A stretch of 29,936 bases of DNA from a virus, in IMG/VR virus record IMGVR_UViG_3300037847_006539, positions 1 to 29,936 of that record. The stretch is one strand, 5' to 3'. Below, piece after piece: positions 2,075 to 29,936 of the stretch; position 1 is the stretch's first letter; the number at the start of each line of letters is the position of its first letter. The position numbers and the translations under genes were made by a program. The notes under the pieces were generated by a model. That model made no database searches, was not told the origin of the DNA, and was given only the letters and a program-made list of their open reading frames with translations.

Positions 2075-2554
2075 TCACCTTAGTTTCATATAGCCACCAG
2101 CCCTTTGGGCTTTCTTGGCTCGGTTATACAAATCTCTATCATGGCCTTTTGTTACAGTGTTTCCCTTTCGTAGAAAGCTATATACTCTGGCCTTGGCCCA
2201 TTGTGATTGCGTGGCCCCTGGCCTATGGGAAACAGCCCAAGCCGCTTCACCCTTTTCGTATACACGTCGGACAATGGAAGATGGTATTTTCATTTCAGCC
2301 GCTACGGAGCTGATGAACTTGTTCTTCGCTGAAGAAGCCTTGGATTTGGCACTTCTTTCTGATACTCGACTTCTGAATCTGGTCAATGATTTTGTATACT
2401 TGGATGGCTTTGTTTTGGCCGTCTTATCCCCAGCCAATGGAGCATAAGACGGTTTCTTTTGTGTTGCTCTTCTTCGTATTTGGGCCGCTCTTTTGGCCGC
2501 CATACGTCCAGATAACCCAGCCACATTTTTTCTTTGTACCTTTCTTTTGGCCAT
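2075..2554 (-). CDS. Basic phage protein with a DUF5824-like C-terminal module
   Basis: This 159-residue protein has an N-terminal half packed with Lys, Arg and Ala (AKRKVQRKN at the start), typical of nucleic-acid binding tails. The C-terminal half, VYEKGEAAWAVSHRPGATQ then WAKARVYSFLRKG then DLYNRAKKAQ, resembles a small domain I associate with DUF5824 in phage proteins (G..A......RPG.T...W..AR..SF). I chose the ATG at 2554, not the one at 2572, because it forms a TAATG overlap with the stop of the helicase gene, like other junctions in this operon. Function is unknown; DNA binding is an inference from charge. Confidence 0.65.
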   Translation of the reverse strand: MAKRKVQRKNVAGLSGRMAAKRAAQIRRRATQKKPSYAPLAGDKTAKTKPSKYTKSLTRFRSRVSERSAKSKASSAKNKFISSVAAEMKIPSSIVRRVYEKGEAAWAVSHRPGATQSQWAKARVYSFLRKGNTVTKGHDRDLYNRAKKAQRAGGYMKLR

Positions 2555-3804
2555 TATCGCCCCCAAGCCCATTTTCTTCCATTGTCGGTATATCGCCTTG
2601 CCTTAGTATACCCTAATTCCATCAGTATCGATTCAATAATTATTCTTGCCTTGTGGTCACGTTGTGCCACTGGGATATCCATCCTTGATAAAATATCATC
2701 CACTTGGAAATATTGTGGAAGCTGTTTAAGAAGAAGTTGGATGGTTGGGGTCCATGGGTGATTGGCTGTGAATGCTTCTCTTCCATTTTCCCTAAGAAGT
2801 TCTTCTTCATCGGATAACCACCACTGAAATGATTCATCATTGGCAAGATGTAAGGCTTCCAACCATAATTGTTCTCTGTCTCGTTTCAGTCCCTTGATAT
2901 CTATCATTCTTCCCTTGGGCCATGGTGTCATTTCTCCATTCTCCCAATCATATCCACACATCACGGGCCACCAACGACGGGAACCCGTGGCATCTGTCAA
3001 GATGTCCAGTCTATTGGTGGTGGCGATAAAGGAACATCTTCTGGGAAGGTCTATCCTTAGCTTTCCATATGGCAATCTGAGACTATCCACTTTCTCGTCA
3101 ATGAATGCTTTTTCGACTTTCTTATCTTTGGCACGTTTGGCCATCTCCTTGAGTTCATACAATAACTTCCCTTGGATGAGTATGACAGCATCTTTGGAAC
3201 CCATTTCCAGGGGAGTATCCCCAAACCATCTTGGGAGAATGGCCAATGTTTCCACGGCTGTACTTTTCCCAAGTCCTTGGCGACCGAACAAAGCCAAACA
3301 GGCTTCATGTTTCACGGGTTTGTCAATGGTGGAAAACATGGCGCGCTTTATGGCACCCACAAAATATTTCTTGGAATATGCTCTATTCAATGGGCTGGGT
3401 TCAGCACCAAAATATCTTTCCAGAAGAAATTCCAATCTTGGTTTCCCATCCCATTCCTTCCCATCAAAATATTCCTTCAAAGGGTTGTATTGCTTATCTT
3501 CAGCCACTTGGCCAACGCTTTCCAAAACCAATTGGGTGGATGGGGTGATATTGTATACCGCTTCCATCCACGTGGCTATTCTTCCCAATTGGTTATCATC
3601 CAAGGCCTTCCCATTCCAATACACTGTTTTATCGAAAGTGTTGAACCGGAGTTGGGAGAAGTATGGATGTTTCATCAACAGAAGAACCACATTATATCTG
3701 GATGATTTCACAGTCTGAACCACTTGGCCAGATATCACGCGTGTATTCATTTTCAGCCCAAGTTCGATTGGGTCCACATAATCTTTTATATTCATATCAA
3801 TCAT
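2554..3804 (-). CDS. VirE-type replicative helicase / P-loop ATPase
   Basis: This 416-residue protein matches the virulence-associated E family of phage and plasmid superfamily 3-like helicases. Residues 174-182 are a Walker A loop (GRQGLGKST). A Walker B-like LLYELKEM lies at about 214-221, a sensor segment SFIATTN at 258-264, and TGSRRWWPV at 273-281 is the typical arginine-containing family motif. It directly follows the primase gene, so the two probably form a primase-helicase pair unwinding the phage origin. I chose ATG 3804 because a perfect AGGAGA site lies six bases upstream. Longer starts would run into the primase gene. Confidence 0.88.
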   Translation of the reverse strand: MIDMNIKDYVDPIELGLKMNTRVISGQVVQTVKSSRYNVVLLLMKHPYFSQLRFNTFDKTVYWNGKALDDNQLGRIATWMEAVYNITPSTQLVLESVGQVAEDKQYNPLKEYFDGKEWDGKPRLEFLLERYFGAEPSPLNRAYSKKYFVGAIKRAMFSTIDKPVKHEACLALFGRQGLGKSTAVETLAILPRWFGDTPLEMGSKDAVILIQGKLLYELKEMAKRAKDKKVEKAFIDEKVDSLRLPYGKLRIDLPRRCSFIATTNRLDILTDATGSRRWWPVMCGYDWENGEMTPWPKGRMIDIKGLKRDREQLWLEALHLANDESFQWWLSDEEELLRENGREAFTANHPWTPTIQLLLKQLPQYFQVDDILSRMDIPVAQRDHKARIIIESILMELGYTKARRYTDNGRKWAWGR

Positions 3805-3815
3805 TTTCTTCTCTC

Positions 3816-4715
3816 CTAACATACACCAAACAATCTTCCCAAAGTGAACAAGGACCATCTTTGACCACAGCTATTCATATGGCCACAATTGGCCCATGAA
3901 CTATTGGCCACTGGTGAAACATAAAAATACGTAGCATCTGAACGTCCACAATTTGGGCATTTCCATCCAACGATTCTTGGGTTGCTTCCACCACTGTTTT
4001 TTCCTTGGATTTTGTTTCCCAACTCGATACGATAGCTTTCTTCTGTGGCCAGTTTTATGGATAGATGTTCTTTTGGGTCTTGTAGATAATATGGCATGTT
4101 CTCAATGGCTTTGGCGCGCTTTCTCATTCGTTCCAGCTTCTCCATCTGTTCTTTCTTTTTGTCCTCCACATACTTATGAGCCACATCAAAATCTATGGAA
4201 AACAGCCCATCCCCATCTTCTGGGATGTTGATATGGAATTGGGAACCAGTATTGGGAAGGAAATAGAACCTTCTTGGGTCCTTACATTGTTCATCCATCG
4301 TTCTTCCAGTGTATTCAAAAAACATCTTCTTACATTGCATCCAAGCCCCAGCCCAATAATCAACATTTTCAAAAGTTTCCACGGGTTTGGCAAATGGAAT
4401 AACCAGCCGCCATTTGTGCTTCTTCCTCGAATGGGAGAAAGATGTGTAGGCGATATACTTAAAATCTTGGAATGCTCTGTGATAGCCAAAATCCAATCCT
4501 TCATCAATATCGAATACAGCCAATGAAACAGCCATCACATCACTGTTTTTCAGTCCTCTTTTGAAGAACATGGCTGGGGAGAAAGCTGGAAGTTCTTCTT
4601 TCTTGTCTTCACTCCTGGGCATTGTAAGAAACAAGGCCAGTTGTTCAAAAGAATATTCTATTTGAATGGGGTTCTGTGTGTTGTATATTTTACGTAGGGC
4701 GGTTATAGTGTACAT
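3816..4715 (-). CDS. Primase-polymerase-like protein with C-terminal zinc ribbon
   Basis: The protein is about 299 residues. AVFDIDEG near residues 66-73 is the acidic hhhDhD motif of archaeo-eukaryotic type primases. TSFSHSRKKHKWRLVIP follows at about 91-107, with the His/Arg residues expected for nucleotide binding, and DPRRFYFLPN comes later. The C-terminus has a four-cysteine zinc ribbon (CPNC near 253-256, then CGH and SCGQRW). It would make RNA or DNA primers and sits immediately before the helicase. The AAGGA site is eight bases before ATG 4715. Upstream in-frame ATGs at 4721 and 4736 are possible but worse placed. Confidence 0.75.
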   Translation of the reverse strand: MYTITALRKIYNTQNPIQIEYSFEQLALFLTMPRSEDKKEELPAFSPAMFFKRGLKNSDVMAVSLAVFDIDEGLDFGYHRAFQDFKYIAYTSFSHSRKKHKWRLVIPFAKPVETFENVDYWAGAWMQCKKMFFEYTGRTMDEQCKDPRRFYFLPNTGSQFHINIPEDGDGLFSIDFDVAHKYVEDKKKEQMEKLERMRKRAKAIENMPYYLQDPKEHLSIKLATEESYRIELGNKIQGKNSGGSNPRIVGWKCPNCGRSDATYFYVSPVANSSWANCGHMNSCGQRWSLFTLGRLFGVC

Positions 4716-4747
4716 GTGCATTTTCCTTGTTTGCATATTAGGTACAT

Positions 4748-4775
4748 AAGGGATGATGATTATTCATCATCCCTT
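4748..4775. promoter_or_regulatory. Perfect 12-bp stem-loop between resolvase and primase genes
   Basis: The arms 4748-4759 and 4764-4775 pair perfectly around a four-base loop. The structure includes the stop codon of the RusA-like gene (4767-4769) and precedes the primase start by about 33 bases. On the plus strand it is followed by TCTTATTTTT, a terminator shape for antisense transcription. On the sense (minus) strand there is no U-tract, so there it may act in mRNA processing, stability or translation control. Confidence 0.55.
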
Positions 4776-5363
4776 TCTTATTTTTACGATGATTTTGGGT
4801 TCATAGGCCCAAAATTTGGCACCCCTTAGGGTGGGCACCATACAATCATTTTGTATAATGCCTGCATCCTCAAAACTATCCAGAACGGATTTTTCGAGGT
4901 TATCAGTATCCGGCTTTTGGATGTGCCATCCCCAAGCCTTGGTTTCCGAGAAGAACCAAAATTCGATATCCATATGAACAAAGTGGGGATATTGCTGTAT
5001 ATTCTTCTTCTTGATTTGTCGAATCATCTCTTTCTTGAAAAGACCATATTTTGGTGGCATGTATGTCCTTCCATATTTGGTAAAACGTGGCCTTGGGCAT
5101 GCCATGGGATGGACATCGAAAAGATAGATATCATCATAGATGAATTTTTCCCGTTCTCCCAATATTGTGGTCAATAATACCCTTTGCCATATTTGGATTT
5201 TGTATGGACTATCGGATATCGTTCGAATAATCTTCATCATCTGCTTATGGGTGGGCATCCGTTCACCACTCAACCATTTCAGCCACAAATCCTTCTTTGT
5301 TACCTTTGAAAGATTGGGATGTTCTTGGTCTAGTCGATTCAGTATTTGGGTAAAGGTTTCCAT
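4767..5363 (-). CDS. rusA: RusA-family Holliday junction resolvase with N-terminal extension
   Basis: This 198-residue protein carries the RusA core. PRPRFTKYGRTYMP starts near residue 90, KPDTDNLEKSVLDSFEDAG runs from 150, and ND follows near 172. The aspartates in KPDTDN, LD and ND are the metal-binding residues of this family, which cuts four-way junctions and supports packaging of unbranched DNA. The family core is about 110-120 residues; here about 80 extra N-terminal residues precede it, helical and unrecognised. ATG 5363 is chosen because GGAGG lies just upstream and it overlaps the methylase stop (TAATG). Confidence 0.85.
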   Translation of the reverse strand: METFTQILNRLDQEHPNLSKVTKKDLWLKWLSGERMPTHKQMMKIIRTISDSPYKIQIWQRVLLTTILGEREKFIYDDIYLFDVHPMACPRPRFTKYGRTYMPPKYGLFKKEMIRQIKKKNIQQYPHFVHMDIEFWFFSETKAWGWHIQKPDTDNLEKSVLDSFEDAGIIQNDCMVPTLRGAKFWAYEPKIIVKIRKG

Positions 5364-6193
5364 TATACTTCCTCCAATAAGCCCGATTTCCAAATCTGTT
5401 CACCAATCCATTGACTACATTGTGGAACGATGGCATTTCCCAGAGCTTTCAATCTAGCCACCCTTTTGGAAATCCCATCATCCACTGAACAAAATGGGGG
5501 TTCAGTCGTTCCTTTTGCCCAATGGTTTTTTGGGTATGGCCCATTTTTTTGGCTATCTCTACATTTAAATCTTCTTTTTGATTCCATGCTGATGGTGTTG
5601 ATGGATTGTTTTTCCATATTCTGGATTGTGGGGTGGGAAGCATCCCTTTCCAATGTTTTCGGAAAGATGGGGCGGCTTGGTTTGCTTTGGCTGTTGGCGT
5701 CGGATAAATAGCAGATGGAAAACCATCTGGCCCTTCTGTGATTGGCCCCAAAATCTGAAGCTCGAATAATTGTCCATTCTGAATCATACCCGATTTCGGC
5801 AAGGGACCCGAGAACGTCGAGTCCCCCCAAGTGAAGGATATTTGCAACGTTTTCCAAGACAACGACCCTTGGCTTTCTTCTGAGGTTGCCAATAATCCTA
5901 TGCATTTCCCACCAAAGGCCCGACTTTTTACCATGTATACCTTCCATTTTTCCAGCGTTACTCAAATCCTGACAAGGAAAACCACCACAAACTATAGTGG
6001 GTGGTTCCAGTTCTTTGGCTTGGATTGTGGTAACATCATTATATAATTTGGCCTTGGGCCAATGCTTCTTCAATATCGATTGACAATATTTGTCTTTCTC
6101 CACTTGCCAGATGGTGGATGAATTGGGAATGGCACGTTCCAAACCCAGTTCAAAACCTCCGATACCTGAAAATAAACTTCCAATGGTAATCAT
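5363..6193 (-). CDS. DNA (cytosine-5) methyltransferase
   Basis: This 276-residue protein has the ordered C5-methylase motifs: motif I GSLFSGIGGFE at 5-15, catalytic GGFPCQDLS with Cys74, ENV at 114-116, NHRRARWF at about 151-158, a variable target-recognition segment, and KALGNAIVPQ near the C-terminus. It methylates cosine-ring carbon 5 of cytosine in a short site that cannot be read from sequence. No partner endonuclease is adjacent, so it is an orphan enzyme likely protecting phage DNA from restriction. ATG 6193 overlaps the regulator stop (ATGA). The upstream TTG at 6208 is less likely. It is shorter than typical bacterial Dcm, but normal for phage. Confidence 0.92.
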   Translation of the reverse strand: MITIGSLFSGIGGFELGLERAIPNSSTIWQVEKDKYCQSILKKHWPKAKLYNDVTTIQAKELEPPTIVCGGFPCQDLSNAGKMEGIHGKKSGLWWEMHRIIGNLRRKPRVVVLENVANILHLGGLDVLGSLAEIGYDSEWTIIRASDFGANHRRARWFSICYLSDANSQSKPSRPIFPKTLERDASHPTIQNMEKQSINTISMESKRRFKCRDSQKNGPYPKNHWAKGTTEPPFCSVDDGISKRVARLKALGNAIVPQCSQWIGEQIWKSGLLEEV

Positions 6194-6483
6194 GATACCA
6201 AATCCCAAATCACCATGGGTTCCACTTCCAGAGCATTGGAAAACTTTTTGATGTGGTTGATATTCAAAGGTCTTTTTCCATTCAACAACCTGGAAAGCAG
6301 TGTTTCATCCATGTTCATCTTATTGGCCAAATCTCTTTGGGACAATCCATACTCGTTCATCTTGAGACAAACCCAAACAGGGAAAGTTGGGTTCTTGAGT
6401 TTTTCACCAGCTCCCACCATTCCATATTCTTTTACCAATCTCCTGATGGGTCGATAATTCATAAGTTCTTCTGTAATTTTCAT
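6190..6483 (-). CDS. HTH (Cro/CI or HigA-like) transcriptional regulator
   Basis: This 97-residue protein contains a lambda-repressor type helix-turn-helix at about residues 40-90: MNEYGLSQRDLANKMNMDE, then LLSRLLNGKRPLNINHIKKF, where LSQRDLA is the positioning helix and the LSRLLNG region the recognition side. A good AGGAG site lies eight to nine bases before the ATG. It is the first gene of the leftward early operon and lies beside two operator-like palindromes, so it is the natural candidate for the switch repressor. The fold also occurs in HigA-type antitoxins, but no toxin is adjacent. Confidence 0.82.
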   Translation of the reverse strand: MKITEELMNYRPIRRLVKEYGMVGAGEKLKNPTFPVWVCLKMNEYGLSQRDLANKMNMDETLLSRLLNGKRPLNINHIKKFSNALEVEPMVIWDLVS

Positions 6484-6510
6484 TTTTTTTTTCTCCTATA
6501 AAGAAAAGTC

Positions 6511-6539
6511 TTGACTTGTCATAGTGACAATCTTATTAT
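6511..6539 (+). promoter_or_regulatory. Rightward early promoter of the central switch
   Basis: TTGACT (6511-6516), a 17-base spacer and TATTAT (6534-6539) each match the sigma70 consensus at five of six positions. Transcription would start near 6546 and reach the ATG at 6588. Its -10 lies on the same bases as the -10 of the leftward promoter, so both cannot be occupied at once. Confidence 0.65.
6516..6530. promoter_or_regulatory. Operator-like perfect palindrome 1
   Basis: TTGTCATAGTGACAA is a perfect inverted repeat with six-base arms and a three-base centre. It covers the end of the -35 and the spacer of the rightward promoter and lies at the start of the leftward transcript. Size and position fit an operator for a dimeric HTH repressor. 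Confidence 0.65.
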
Positions 6540-6564
6540 TACTTTACGTTTGTCATTCTGTCAA
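6535..6564 (-). promoter_or_regulatory. Leftward early promoter of the central switch
   Basis: On the minus strand TTGACA (6559-6564, perfect) is followed after 18 bases by AATAAT (6535-6540). The start would be near 6528, reading the HTH regulator, methylase and replication genes. The -35 lies inside operator-like palindrome 2 and the -10 overlaps that of the rightward promoter. Confidence 0.7.
6550..6564. promoter_or_regulatory. Operator-like palindrome 2 with one arm mismatch
   Basis: TTGTCATTCTGTCAA has the same layout as palindrome 1 with one asymmetric base, and contains the whole -35 of the leftward promoter. The centres of the two palindromes are 34 bp apart, about three helical turns, which would allow cooperative binding on one DNA face. 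Confidence 0.6.
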
Positions 6565-6587
6565 GCGAAAAAAAACAAGGAAAAAAA

Positions 6588-6725
6588 ATGTACGCTTTTA
6601 TCTATGAAATCCACTTGGTCATGGCCACAGCCAAACCAGTTCTACAAAATTTGGCCATATCTGCTAGTATATTGGGGATTATGATATATTGGATTTGGGA
6701 ATCGAACAATGGAAAACGAAAATGA
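6588..6725 (+). CDS. 45-residue small membrane peptide
   Basis: The open frame runs from ATG 6588 to TGA 6723-6725, too short for routine gene calling. It has an AAGGA site about eight bases upstream, and its stop overlaps the start of the exonuclease gene as ATGA (6722-6725), so it looks translated and coupled. The product has one hydrophobic stretch (about residues 17-37, including NLAISASILGIMIYWIW) and a charged end NGKRK, consistent with a single membrane span. It is the first product of the rightward transcript. It could be a superinfection-exclusion or host-membrane peptide, but that is only inference. Confidence 0.6.
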   Translation: MYAFIYEIHLVMATAKPVLQNLAISASILGIMIYWIWESNNGKRK

Positions 6726-7300
6726 AAAACCAAGAAATTATCTATCTCGATACTGAAACCACGGGATTGGACCCTGATTATCATGAAATAATCTCTGTTT
6801 GTGTCATACGTCAATCTGATGGCAGAATATATACATGGAAAGCCAATCCAGATTGGCCCGACCATATAGATGATATGGCTGTGACTGTGAACGGATACAC
6901 CCCACAAGATTGGGCCACAGCAATAACACAAAACGAAATGGCCCATGAACTGGGGATGGTCTTGGATGGTGCTGTTATTGTCGGCCACAATCCCAAGTTT
7001 GATTTGTCGTTTATAGAAAACCTATTTTGGCGACATAAGGTCCAATGTAGGATTTCTCATCGTGCCATTGATACCATAACTTTGGCTTATGTGTATCTTG
7101 TCCCTTGGGGGCTGAAATCATTATCATTGGATGGTATCCGTGTTTATCTGGGATGGAAGAAACACAAAATCCATACAGCCCTACAAGATACCCAAGATGT
7201 GAAGAAACTTTTCGAAATCCTGACATCTTGGAAACGATATCTTCTCTATGCCAAGTTGATAAGCCGTTGGATATCACGGAAGATGAAATGGAAAAAGTGA
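6722..7300 (+). CDS. DnaQ-like DEDDh 3'-5' exonuclease
   Basis: This 192-residue protein has all three Exo motifs: Exo I IYLDTETTGLDP with Asp10 and Glu12, Exo II VGHNPKFDLSFIE at about 87-99, and Exo III HTALQDTQD with His151 and Asp156. The histidine puts it in the DEDDh group (DNA polymerase epsilon subunit, RNase T, oligoribonuclease-like). It removes nucleotides from 3' ends of DNA or RNA. No polymerase gene is visible, so it is free-standing and may act in repair, host DNA or RNA turnover, or proofreading of a host enzyme. ATG 6722 gives the ATGA overlap with the small peptide; an upstream ATG at 6689 is rejected. Confidence 0.88.
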   Translation: MKNQEIIYLDTETTGLDPDYHEIISVCVIRQSDGRIYTWKANPDWPDHIDDMAVTVNGYTPQDWATAITQNEMAHELGMVLDGAVIVGHNPKFDLSFIENLFWRHKVQCRISHRAIDTITLAYVYLVPWGLKSLSLDGIRVYLGWKKHKIHTALQDTQDVKKLFEILTSWKRYLLYAKLISRWISRKMKWKK

Positions 7301-7563
7301 GGAGTCCACATTTTTCACAATGGCTATGTAAGCGAAAACGAAAAGACAAATTCAAGTGGAAGGACTTGGCCAATCATCTGGATATCTCCACCCAAGGCGT
7401 GGATAACTATGCCAAAGGCTTTTCCCATCCACAATGTATGAAACTATATCGGCTGTGTGAATTCATAGCCATACACACTAACAAATCCACAGAAGTGGTT
7501 TGGTATGAAGCATTGAAGCCGATTATCAAAGATTATAACCATAAAACAAGGAAAAAAACATGA
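7288..7563 (+). CDS. Small basic HTH-like protein
   Basis: This 91-residue basic protein contains FKWKDLANHLDISTQGVDNYAKG at about residues 22-45, which has the spacing of a helix-turn-helix (DLANHLDIS as the first helix and turn, TQGVDNYAKG as the recognition helix), followed by a helical segment. ATG 7288 has GGAAG seven bases upstream and overlaps the exonuclease end by 13 bases. GTG 7297 is an alternative giving a GTGA overlap. As an early gene opposite the main HTH gene it could be a Cro-like or activator protein. That role is inferred from position and fold only. Confidence 0.65.
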   Translation: MEKVRSPHFSQWLCKRKRKDKFKWKDLANHLDISTQGVDNYAKGFSHPQCMKLYRLCEFIAIHTNKSTEVVWYEALKPIIKDYNHKTRKKT

Positions 7564-7874
7564 GAAGAAGATTCAACCAAGATTTACTTCCATCCAGCTG
7601 GAAGCCCAGGAGTTTTACCAAGATATTTTGTCCAATCTCGTTTGGGGCTTGGGTCAAAACCACCCAAGAAAAATATGATGTCAACACTGTAAGAATGGAA
7701 TCGGCCGGATTTAATCCAGGCACCCTTACAAGATGGAGACAAGGAAAACAGAAAAGAAAGCCTAATTATTCGATGATAGTAAAATTTTGTGAATGCATCC
7801 AAAAGGAATCAACGGAAAAGAATATCCTCGAAAAGCTGATAATAGAAGCTGAACAAAATATGTATGAACAATAA
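7560..7874 (+). CDS. Second small HTH-like protein, weakly recognised
   Basis: This 104-residue basic protein is coupled to the previous gene by an ATGA overlap (7560-7563) and has AAGGA seven bases before its ATG. The middle section, EKYDVNTVRMESAGFNPGTLTRWRQG followed by a lysine-rich turn and a helix, resembles a helix-turn-helix with GTLTRWRQG as the recognition part. Its arrangement parallels its neighbour, so the two may be diverged relatives or form a regulatory pair. Function is not established. Confidence 0.6.
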   Translation: MRRRFNQDLLPSSWKPRSFTKIFCPISFGAWVKTTQEKYDVNTVRMESAGFNPGTLTRWRQGKQKRKPNYSMIVKFCECIQKESTEKNILEKLIIEAEQNMYEQ

Positions 7875-7888
7875 ATAGAGACAGAACC

Positions 7889-8527
7889 ATGATACACATT
7901 TACAATCAAGATTGTATGGAAGCCATGGCATCCATGCAAGATAACCAATTCGATTTGGCCATAGTGGACCCACCATATGGTATAGGCATAGATGGCCAGA
8001 AAGAATCTATATGTAAGAATCCAAAGCATAATAGAAAATATTTTGAACACAAGGGATGGGATACAAAACCACCTTCAAAAAAATACTTTGATGAATTATT
8101 TCGTGTTTCAAAAAATCAAATAATATGGGGCGCTAATTATTATCCACAATATCTTTTCTCCTCAAAGGGCTGGATAATATGGGATAAAGGCCAAAAAGGA
8201 TTAACAATGTCAGATTGTGAACTTGCATTTTCTTCTTTTAATCGCGCCACTCGAATATTTGTATGTAATCGTAGGGCATTAGCGCAAGAAGGAACGATTC
8301 ACCCCACACAAAAGCCTATAAAACTATATACTTGGATTCTTGATAAGTATGCCAAGAAGGGGTGGAAGATATTGGATACCCATCTGGGAAGTGGTTCTTC
8401 TGCCATAGCTGCCCATAATATGGGCTATGAGTTCCATGGATACGAGCTGGACAAGGAATATTATCTGGCAGCCAAAGAAAGACTGGAAAACCACCAAAGA
8501 CAATTAAAACTTCCATTGGAGATATAG
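7889..8527 (+). CDS. DNA methyltransferase, N6-adenine or N4-cytosine, beta-type order
   Basis: This 212-residue protein has the catalytic motif DPPYG at 27-31 first, HPTQKP at 138-143, then the SAM-binding segment ILDTHLGSGSSAIAA near 161-175 followed by YELDKEYYLAAKERL. This order (catalytic before SAM-binding) defines the beta class that includes CcrM-like enzymes, not the alpha class of Dam. It methylates exocyclic amino groups of A or C in an unknown site. No endonuclease is adjacent, so it is an orphan. The gene is visibly more AT-rich than its neighbours, suggesting more recent acquisition. It lies on the opposite arm of the switch from the C5-methylase. Confidence 0.9.
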   Translation: MIHIYNQDCMEAMASMQDNQFDLAIVDPPYGIGIDGQKESICKNPKHNRKYFEHKGWDTKPPSKKYFDELFRVSKNQIIWGANYYPQYLFSSKGWIIWDKGQKGLTMSDCELAFSSFNRATRIFVCNRRALAQEGTIHPTQKPIKLYTWILDKYAKKGWKILDTHLGSGSSAIAAHNMGYEFHGYELDKEYYLAAKERLENHQRQLKLPLEI

Positions 8528-8531
8528 AACC

Positions 8532-8870
8532 ATGATAATTATTTTGTATCACATAAAGGATTTTGAATCCTATACCAGAACACAAACCCCAAGAAGTGTT
8601 GGGCCCATTGCCATCAACGTCCAACAAATTTCATCCATCGTTCCCATGGAACTGTGGGTGGATGGGAACGAAAAGAACAGAAATATCACCCAAGTAACAA
8701 TGGCCAATGGAACGGTATACTATGCCAATCATTCTATGGATGAAATGGATGGAATGTTACGTGGAATAACCTGTGTTCATGACTATAGGCCAGAACATGG
8801 AAGCCATTATTTAGTCCCTCACGAATACGAAAAGCCGGAGCATTTCCATGATATTGAAGACCTTATATAA
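8532..8870 (+). CDS. Unknown protein with a small beta-rich region
   Basis: This is a 112-residue protein. Residues 24-70 (GPIAINVQQISSIVPMELW, then ITQVTMANGTVYYANHSMDEMD) alternate as short beta strands with a NG turn, faintly like FlbD-type or other small beta regulators. The similarity is too weak for a name. The C-terminus is rich in His and acidic residues (HYLVPHEYEKPEHFHDIEDLI). It follows the methylase by four bases and its 3' end overlaps the SWIM gene by 23 bases. The leaders of this gene and the methylase share AGAACCATGATA. Confidence 0.65.
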   Translation: MIIILYHIKDFESYTRTQTPRSVGPIAINVQQISSIVPMELWVDGNEKNRNITQVTMANGTVYYANHSMDEMDGMLRGITCVHDYRPEHGSHYLVPHEYEKPEHFHDIEDLI

Positions 8871-9066
8871 GAAATCGTATGACATCCCAAAGCATGGAAA
8901 ATGCTTATATTGGGAACTGGATGTAAAGGGATACTGGGTTTCCCTACGATACATCCCAGCCAAAGGATTTTGGGGTTATTGTACTTGTGTAGCTGGCCAA
9001 TATCGGAAACCATGTAAACATCTACATTTTGGAATAGAAGCCATGAAAAAAGAGGAAGGATTATAA
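8848..9066 (+). CDS. SWIM-type zinc-finger miniprotein
   Basis: This 72-residue protein ends with YCTCVAGQYRKPCKHLHFGIEAM, which has the CxC...CxH spacing of the SWIM zinc finger (Cys, Cys, Cys and His). SWIM fingers occur in transposases, helicases and plant and bacterial proteins and bind DNA or protein; here the finger makes up most of the protein. GGAG lies seven bases upstream of ATG 8848, and the gene overlaps its upstream neighbour by 23 bases. It closes the rightward operon. The leftward terminator of the late operon lies within its last codons, and the rightward terminator follows at 9105. Confidence 0.75.
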   Translation: MILKTLYKKSYDIPKHGKCLYWELDVKGYWVSLRYIPAKGFWGYCTCVAGQYRKPCKHLHFGIEAMKKEEGL

Positions 9067-9075
9067 TCCCTCCTC
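9046..9075 (-). terminator. Leftward terminator closing the late operon
   Basis: On the minus strand the arms 9064-9075 and 9052-9063 pair with one mismatch in 12 and are followed by six T residues (9051-9046). The late operon ends at 9134, so this is its expected Rho-independent terminator. It lies within the 3' end of the opposing SWIM gene. Confidence 0.7.
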
Positions 9076-9104
9076 TCCATGCAAGTCAATATTTTCTCTA
9101 TCCA

Positions 9105-9134
9105 CCCATGGAAAACCCATGGGCTTTTTTATTT
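9105..9134 (+). terminator. Rightward terminator closing the rightward early operon
   Basis: The stem CCCATGG (9105-9111), a five-base loop and CCATGGG (9117-9123) is followed by C and a T-rich run (9125-9134). It is a clear Rho-independent terminator for the operon that ends at 9066. Confidence 0.75.
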
Positions 9135-21660: not shown

Positions 21661-22584
21661 TTATGCGTCGGTTGCAATCTCTACAATTCGGCTTTGCTCA
21701 ATGACAGCCGCCCCAGTGTAAGCGGTTCCCACGATTTTGGTCAATGAAAACGCGCTATCTCGTTCGAGCTCCACAAGTACGGGAGTTCCAGCGGGACGGA
21801 TTTCACCAGCGGGACCAGCCAATGGAACGGGAGTACCCAAAGCGTATCCAATCGCACCGGCTGAGAACATAGCGCCTGAACGGTCCGTTCCATCACTTGG
21901 AACATATGCTGATTTGTGGACCTGTACACCCATGAAATCACCAACAAAACCTTGTCCAAGGCTTTTCATGAGTTCGTGATGTGCAGGGTTGAACGCAATG
22001 GCGTTAGCGGTTTCGTTACGAATAGAAGACTGAAGGTCAGCTATTTGGCGTGGGTGGAGAACTGCGAATAACTGGGATGGGTTATTGGCAATCTCGAGAA
22101 GATACAAAGCATCCATGAAGTCATCAACTGACATATCCACACCAGTGGTTCCAACAGAAGAAGAAGCACTGGAAAACAGAGCGCAAATCATTTCCATGAA
22201 ACGAGATTCAAAAGCTCCGGCCATTGATTCACTAAGTCGGAAAACGTCGATATCTTGGCCCAACTTTGTGAGCGCGGCGAGGTCGGTCAAATCGTACCGG
22301 AGTCCAATCCGTCCCACAGTGATATCTTCTGTGGCGGTTGTGAGTGCTGAAGATGTGATTTCTGAACCGTCACCCACTGTATTCATGGCCTCAAAGCCAT
22401 CCAAGCCAGCGTAACGAAGTGAAATGGCATCTGAACCCATGCCAGCGACATCACCAGCAAAAAGAAGAGCCCCAGAATTTCGGATAGAAGCCGCATCAAA
22501 AAGTAGCGCGCGAACTTCATTTTCAATCATCTTATCAAGACGGAGTCCATCAGTTTGAAGGACATTATATGTAATAGTAGACAT
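21661..22584 (-). CDS. Major capsid protein (HK97-fold type)
   Basis: This is a 307-residue protein. It follows the scaffold, portal and terminase genes in transcription order and has capsid-like features: an N-terminal helical arm (LRLDKMIENEVRALLFDAASI), VGRIGLRYDLTDLAALTK, HPRQIADLQSSIRNETANA in the spine helix region, and a C-terminal P-domain strand region (GTPVLVELERDSAFSLTKIV). The codon use is more GC-rich at third positions than its neighbours, as for a highly expressed gene. TAGGA precedes the ATG at 22584. The candidate origin and a cysteine-rich gene lie upstream, the large stem-loop downstream. Confidence 0.8.
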   Translation of the reverse strand: MSTITYNVLQTDGLRLDKMIENEVRALLFDAASIRNSGALLFAGDVAGMGSDAISLRYAGLDGFEAMNTVGDGSEITSSALTTATEDITVGRIGLRYDLTDLAALTKLGQDIDVFRLSESMAGAFESRFMEMICALFSSASSSVGTTGVDMSVDDFMDALYLLEIANNPSQLFAVLHPRQIADLQSSIRNETANAIAFNPAHHELMKSLGQGFVGDFMGVQVHKSAYVPSDGTDRSGAMFSAGAIGYALGTPVPLAGPAGEIRPAGTPVLVELERDSAFSLTKIVGTAYTGAAVIEQSRIVEIATDA

Positions 22585-22762
22585 TTTTTTTTCCTATATG
22601 GTTATTGGTTTTTCGTGGCCCTACACTGTTTACGGTTGTGACCCTAACCACACATTTACATTATACACAAGTTATTCATAGCTGTGAATAACCTGTGTAT
22701 AACTTTTTTCACAAGTTATTCATAGGCTGTGAAAAACCTGTGAATAACCTGTGTATAACTTT
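22585..22762. other. Candidate replication origin: cluster of DnaA-box-like 9-mers
   Basis: This 178-base gap has seven 9-mers fitting TTWTNCACA: plus strand at 22661-22669 (TTATACACA) and 22705-22713 (TTTTTCACA); minus strand at 22683-22691, 22694-22702, 22728-22736, 22739-22747 and 22750-22758. The minus-strand copies step by exactly 11 bases within each group. The two halves (about 22666-22709 and 22711-22762) are imperfect tandem copies. The region 22661-22702 also folds as an 18-bp inverted repeat with a six-base loop, followed by a T-run (22704-22709). Host DnaA binding and replication start are inferred. Confidence 0.65.
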
Positions 22763-29925: not shown

Positions 29926-29936
29926 GTCATAGATAG
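29926..29936. repeat. 11-bp direct terminal repeat, right copy
   Basis: This is the right copy of the 11-bp end repeat. If the molecule is circular, the end of the small terminase operon leader joins directly to the left end, and a leftward promoter-like sequence at 8-36 would then feed the terminase gene. Confidence 0.75.

Follow-up and report, generated by a model that had tools for sequence, protein, structure and literature searches.

A conserved module with a predicted bidirectional promoter and putative paired operators in an uncultivated phage lineage

Gene organization around the divergent region

The window, meaning here the whole 29,936-bp stretch of viral DNA that was analyzed, carries the same 11 bases at its start and end (GTCATAGATAG, 1-11 and 29926-29936), and the record is probably complete. 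The same 11-bp repeat, GTCATAGATAG, is found at the same place at both ends of a relative, G001 (IMGVR_UViG_3300030376_007233, locus L003), which is 29,369 bp long and shows about 80% DNA identity to the window. The terminal repeat suggests fixed genome ends, which are perhaps cohesive. Two further relatives are G003 (IMGVR_UViG_3300021356_000101, loci L013 and L021), whose right end reads GTCATAAATAG, and G004 (IMGVR_UViG_3300022934_000193, locus L025); these two are 90% identical to each other overall. TerL is about 25% identical to the closest isolate terminases, and the window offers neither a tRNA nor an Rfam match as a clue to the host.

All genes are leftward except those of one operon at 6588-9066 (Table 1). 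When the window is compared with G001, substitutions are biased toward third codon positions in a way that backs most of the reading frames, and rightward frames elsewhere in the window display no bias beyond that arising from the overlapping leftward gene. As this operon is the sole rightward one, the 104-bp gap at 6484-6587 constitutes a single divergent region. Among the leftward genes that follow HTH1, those for RusA, primase, and helicase lie on the same strand and overlap or are closely spaced.

The C5-cytosine methylase gene directly behind HTH1 (5363-6208) is present in the window and in G001 and has no match in G003. At its N terminus, the RusA-like resolvase (4767-5393) is extended by about 85 residues with an HTH-like appearance by eye, and its Pfam match covers the RusA part only. 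A DUF5824 protein (2075-2572, E = 8e-16) is 82% identical in G003 and has no match in G001. At 9060-9089 on the minus strand, a promoter-like TTGACT-18-TATAAT (11/12) is oriented antisense to the rightward operon and points into its end. The region at 22660-22760, which precedes the capsid gene (21661-22584) on the minus strand, contains five DnaA-box-like TTATNCACA sites within about 100 bp, together with a promoter-like TTCACA-17-TATAAT. These repeats are also present in G001 and G003, and seven such sites occur in the whole window, compared to 1.6 expected. Lying among structural genes, this region is a candidate replication origin and/or late promoter.

Table 1. Coordinates of the divergent module and of the genes on its two sides in the window
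Feature	Position	Strand	Remarks
Leftward genes 3′ of HTH1: C5 methylase, RusA, primase, helicase	2554-6208	-	Third-position bias confirms frames
HTH1, XRE/HTH_3 regulator, 97 aa, first leftward gene	6190-6483	-	HTH_3, E = 3.6e-9
Bidirectional promoter/double operator module	6511-6564	.	54 bp, equal length in four phages
PR -35, TTGACT	6511-6516	+	5/6 consensus; unchanged in four phages
PR -10, TATTAT	6534-6539	+	Spacer 17; predicted +1 at 6546 (A)
PL -35, TTGACA	6559-6564	-	6/6 consensus; unchanged in four phages
PL -10, AATAAT	6535-6540	-	Spacer 18; predicted +1 at 6528 (G, minus strand)
Operator O1 (putative), TTGTCA-TAG-TGACAA	6516-6530	.	Perfect 6-N3-6 palindrome
Operator O2 (putative), TTGTCA-TTC-TGTCAA	6550-6564	.	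One mismatch to O1
First rightward gene, 45 aa	6588-6725	+	Homologue 3′ of module in relatives; third-position bias not strong
RNase_T/DnaQ-like 3′-5′ exonuclease	6731-7300	+	PF00929, E = 1.4e-19; phrog_192
HTH2, HTH1 paralogue	7288-7563	+	hhalign probability 93, E = 3.5e-7 vs HTH1; weak HTH_3 match
HTH3, predicted XRE-fold protein	7560-7874	+	AlphaFold2 pLDDT 76; VIA-align Z up to 9.1
N6/N4 DNA methyltransferase	7889-8527	+	PF01555
Intrinsic terminator of rightward operon (predicted)	9105-9131	+	7-bp stem, then T run

Architecture and conservation of the 54-bp module

Both predicted promoters lie where the original prediction had placed them, and the rightward PR and the leftward PL match the consensus at 10 and 11 of 12 positions, respectively. 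The original prediction had the two promoters using the same -10 bases; the hexamers do overlap, with five bases in common (6535-6539) and not six. With +1 predicted as seven bases beyond the -10, the two starts would be 18 bp apart and the -11A/-7T pair reciprocal (A6535/T6539), which is the commonest layout of bacterial bidirectional promoters (PMC10268837, PMC12825309). The -7T is absent from the two more distant relatives.

Of the two 15-bp palindromes, for which the original prediction gave one common form, O1 is perfect and O2 has one mismatch. Their distance of 34 bp holds from start to start, equivalently from center to center, and the gap itself is 19 bp. It had also been stated that a palindrome covers each -35, which is true of O2 over the PL element; O1 touches the PR element at a single base, 6516. 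O1 instead fills the PR spacer and lies over the start region of PL (about -30 to -16 of PR and -2 to +13 of PL), and O2, besides covering the PL -35, is located just 3′ of the PR start (about -36 to -22 of PL and +5 to +19 of PR). Neither occupies a usual activator position. The mismatch in O2 falls on the base that completes the perfect TTGACA of PL, and all four phages break the symmetry of O2 at this base. No further site of the O1/O2 type was found in the window at up to two mismatches, nor was the operator found elsewhere in the phage genomes examined; such confinement to the module fits the expectation for a local autoregulator.

A sequence search with HTH1 alone retrieved only G001, and the other relatives were obtained by a DNA pattern search and an exonuclease search. 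Pattern searches did not find the module in other viral contigs or, as a combined module, in any of 84,980 species genomes, and the pattern with the exact O1 center gave no match. Pattern matches at L014, L015, L016, and L018 in viral contigs turned out to be unrelated repeat arrays, and exonuclease matches at L026 and L027 (27-37% identity) were without the module.

Single 6-N3-6 palindromes are not rare, since 13 of them occur in the window, and when the window was shuffled 100 times with its dinucleotides preserved, two such palindromes within 60 bp were found in 2 of the shuffles. None of the 100 shuffles gave an overlapping promoter pair with a summed score of at least 21 of 24. The comparative evidence is stronger than the shuffle evidence. 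The module is exactly 54 bp long in the window and in G001, G003, and G004, and its motif positions, set from the window alone, are invariant at 33 of 36 sites versus 4 of 18 for the other positions (Fisher p = 5e-7, with alignment positions taken as independent and the four phages unweighted although G003 and G004 are close). Among the operator arm bases, 11 of 12 are invariant in O1 and 12 of 12 in O2. Between the window and G001, the module is identical at 51 of 54 positions, compared to about 0.57-0.85 for synonymous third positions of the neighboring genes, and conservation ends at the outer edges of both -35 elements in the two phage pairs compared. On the basis of the shuffles and the invariance of the motif positions, chance palindromes were rejected, and the region at 6511-6564 very probably represents a genuine, conserved control element. 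The difference between G003 and G004 at 7 of the 54 positions, with identical immediate flanks, is not anomalous given their overall identity.

The -10 block is variable across the four phages (TATTATTA, TATTATTA, TATAAATA, and TATTAATA). For PR, the -10 hexamers of the relatives read TATTAT, TATAAA, and TATTAA; that of PL is a poor match in G003 (TATTTA) and an intermediate one in G004 (TATTAA), and PL may be weak or start elsewhere in these two phages.

Candidate regulators and predicted working of the module

HTH1, which adjoins the module as originally described, scores 37 bits against the Pfam HTH_3 gathering cut-off of 23, and the unit is conserved: in each of the four phages, an HTH_3 gene ranks first, second, or third on the leftward side. 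Between the module and HTH1, G001 has a 165-aa gene, G003 has this gene and a small ORF, and G004 has the small ORF. The larger gene, 157-165 aa long in G001 and G003 (L003:5433-5930 and L021:6652-7125), has no assigned family and is absent from the window. In the small ORF of G003 (L021:6489-6791) and G004, a 50-aa part is similar to the N-terminal portion of HTH1 (pairwise comparison of the two sequences, E = 4e-4), suggesting a gene fusion or fission. HTH1 of G003 is 23% identical to that of the window, with Q49, E60, S/T61, S64, and R65 kept; by an inferred alignment, these would correspond to the base-contact positions of lambda repressor. Such contact residues are common across XRE proteins.

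Two more candidates are encoded in the rightward operon. HTH2 is kept in the relatives, with 52% identity in G003 compared to 23% for HTH1. Its structural model is weak (pLDDT 66, best Z 3.9), no Foldseek match was obtained at E ≤ 0.001, and the model cannot place the protein, so its HTH assignment rests on the profile comparison. For HTH3, no sequence-family match was found, and the top fold matches by VIA-align are nearly all XRE regulators. HTH1 is a plausible ligand of O1 and O2, and HTH2, the better conserved of the two overall, could take this role instead.

We infer that the module works as one bidirectional promoter with a common -10, forming the single divergent early-promoter region of the phage. 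Firing to the right would express the exonuclease, HTH2, HTH3, and the methyltransferase, and firing to the left would express HTH1, the methylase, RusA, primase, helicase, and the genes beyond. The repressor of both TTGTCA-N3-TGACAA operators would be an XRE-type dimer, most likely of HTH1. As O1 and O2 each overlap both promoters, co-repression is predicted from the geometry, and a repressor on either operator alone would shut both promoters. HTH1 is encoded in the leftward operon and would thus turn down both this operon and the divergent one. The outcome would be autoregulation and coordinated early shut-off, as with TetR at Tn10 tetA/tetR, with no choice of direction; RNA polymerase, bound in one orientation at a time, may add a bias between the two directions. 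Taken as a whole, this reading of co-repression and autoregulation at the divergent early promoter of a non-temperate phage is considered reasonably probable.

A different arrangement resembling CI and Cro would have HTH1 and HTH2, perhaps with HTH3, bind the same operators with differing preference, each favoring its own direction. The position of the two paralogues on either side of the module, the retention of HTH2 in relatives, the XRE fold of HTH3, and the one-base difference between O1 and O2 are in agreement with it. However, the inferred recognition residues of HTH1 and HTH2 are unlike, differential effects are not obvious when each operator overlaps both promoters, and HTH2 is third in its operon and poorly modeled. 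Neither tyrosine (PF00589) nor serine (PF00239) integrases were found in the window and four relatives. Moreover, the predicted leftward transcript contains the resolvase, primase, and helicase genes in addition to HTH1, and with replication genes behind HTH1 it is not a dedicated repressor transcript for lysogeny. The CI/Cro-like arrangement seems unlikely, and a lambda-like switch was rejected as the main reading on account of the missing integrase match, the replication genes behind HTH1, and the overlap of each operator with both promoters. A lambda-like reading of the decision in the original prediction finds no support in the integrase search, the leftward gene content, or the species genomes. 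The phage looks non-temperate, and it may have a non-integrating or other mode of lysogeny. That both promoters are strong enough for polymerase exclusion, while paralogous HTH proteins encoded left and right of the module share its two operators, is more doubtful still.

The original prediction itself held that the two promoters exclude each other, which could dispense with a second repressor; in this reading, both promoters would be strong and a repressor would tip the balance. The common -10 bases and the near-consensus state of both -35 elements are consistent with this, and sites of this kind are bound in one orientation at a time (PMC12825309). On the other hand, the operator geometry predicts co-repression, and the claim that no second repressor takes part is contradicted by the paralogue HTH2 and the XRE-fold protein HTH3 in the rightward operon. 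In addition, the basal activity of five tested E. coli bidirectional promoters was too low for polymerase competition (PMC12825309), which weakens exclusion alone as the switch. Polymerase exclusion is possible as a switch and, in the form originally proposed, improbable.

It is similarly improbable that PR alone is real, with PL a by-product of the -10 symmetry and of a TTGACA-like operator, and with the HTH gene read from elsewhere. The state of the PL -10 in G003 and G004 is in line with this idea, as is the fact that the O2 half-site and the PL -35 are the same bases. Against it, every phage has the O2 mismatch at the very base by which TTGACA is completed, conservation ends at both -35 elements, and the stretch from the module to HTH1 has no other leftward promoter-like site of at least 10/12. 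Another possible reading of the palindromes, for which the putative status of a phage ligand for O1 and O2 leaves some room, is that the phage has borrowed binding sites of a host regulator; it is very remote given the candidate HTH proteins encoded beside the module and the lack of the combined module in the species genomes.

Comparison with known systems

The co-repressed divergent promoter proposed here can be compared with several known systems. It resembles lambda OR with CI and Cro, in that divergent promoters lie between regulator genes and the proteins are of XRE type. In lambda, PR and PRM have no common -10, three operators are present, CI activates PRM, and an integrase is encoded. 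The immI region of P22 (Pant/Pmnt, with Arc and Mnt) also has divergent phage promoters, with an operator between the -35 and -10; its repressors are ribbon-helix-helix proteins, and it is a secondary immunity region.

In Tn10 tetA/tetR, TetR acts on two operators to repress tetA as well as the gene that encodes it (PMC11686294). The module is similar in its overlapping divergent promoters and two like palindromic operators, which serve one repressor in Tn10 (PMC11686294), and HTH1 likewise lies beside the common palindromic operators O1 and O2. The differences are that Tn10 has a TetR-family repressor and a small-molecule inducer, whereas the present module lies between phage operons and has an XRE protein as its proposed ligand, for which no inducer is known. 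The Pc/Pr promoters of pLS20 are overlapping and divergent, with polymerase exclusion and an autoregulating repressor (PMC4207663). As with RcoLS20 at Pc/Pr, the divergent promoters coincide, operators lie over promoters, and a regulator gene is read one way and a large operon the other (PMC4207663). The pLS20 switch differs in relying on numerous sites, on DNA looping, and on a weak Pr that Rco activates; the module has two sites without a further operator at a distance, and both its -35 elements are near consensus.

In E. coli, 19% of the RNAs detected arise from bidirectional promoters with a common -10 (PMC12825309). The near-symmetrical common -10 is shared with the E. coli and Salmonella bidirectional promoters described by Warman, Grainger, and colleagues (PMC12825309, PMC10268837), and the opposed -10 elements of this class likewise have bases in common. 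The 18-bp spacing and the reciprocal -11A/-7T pair of these promoters would also agree with the starts predicted in the window. In contrast to the five tested E. coli promoters with low basal activity, both -35 elements here are near consensus and conserved, and putative operators are built in.

Collectively, the module is of an already known kind, represented by Tn10 tet, pLS20, and E. coli bidirectional promoters, and is not a new lysis-lysogeny switch. Two promoters occupying the same DNA, offered by the original prediction as a departure from lambda, are known from Tn10 tet and from pLS20 Pc/Pr (PMC4207663) and are common among bidirectional promoters (PMC12825309). What distinguishes the module, as read from its sequence, is the combination of two near-consensus -35 elements, putative operators within each half, and a fixed length in the phage lineage. 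In this lineage of uncultivated phages, it represents a compact, evolutionarily footprinted bidirectional promoter for which built-in control by a repressor is predicted. Work on the regulation of bidirectional promoters is at an early stage (PMC12825309), and with near-consensus -35 elements in both directions, the module could provide a natural test of polymerase competition when both directions are strong.
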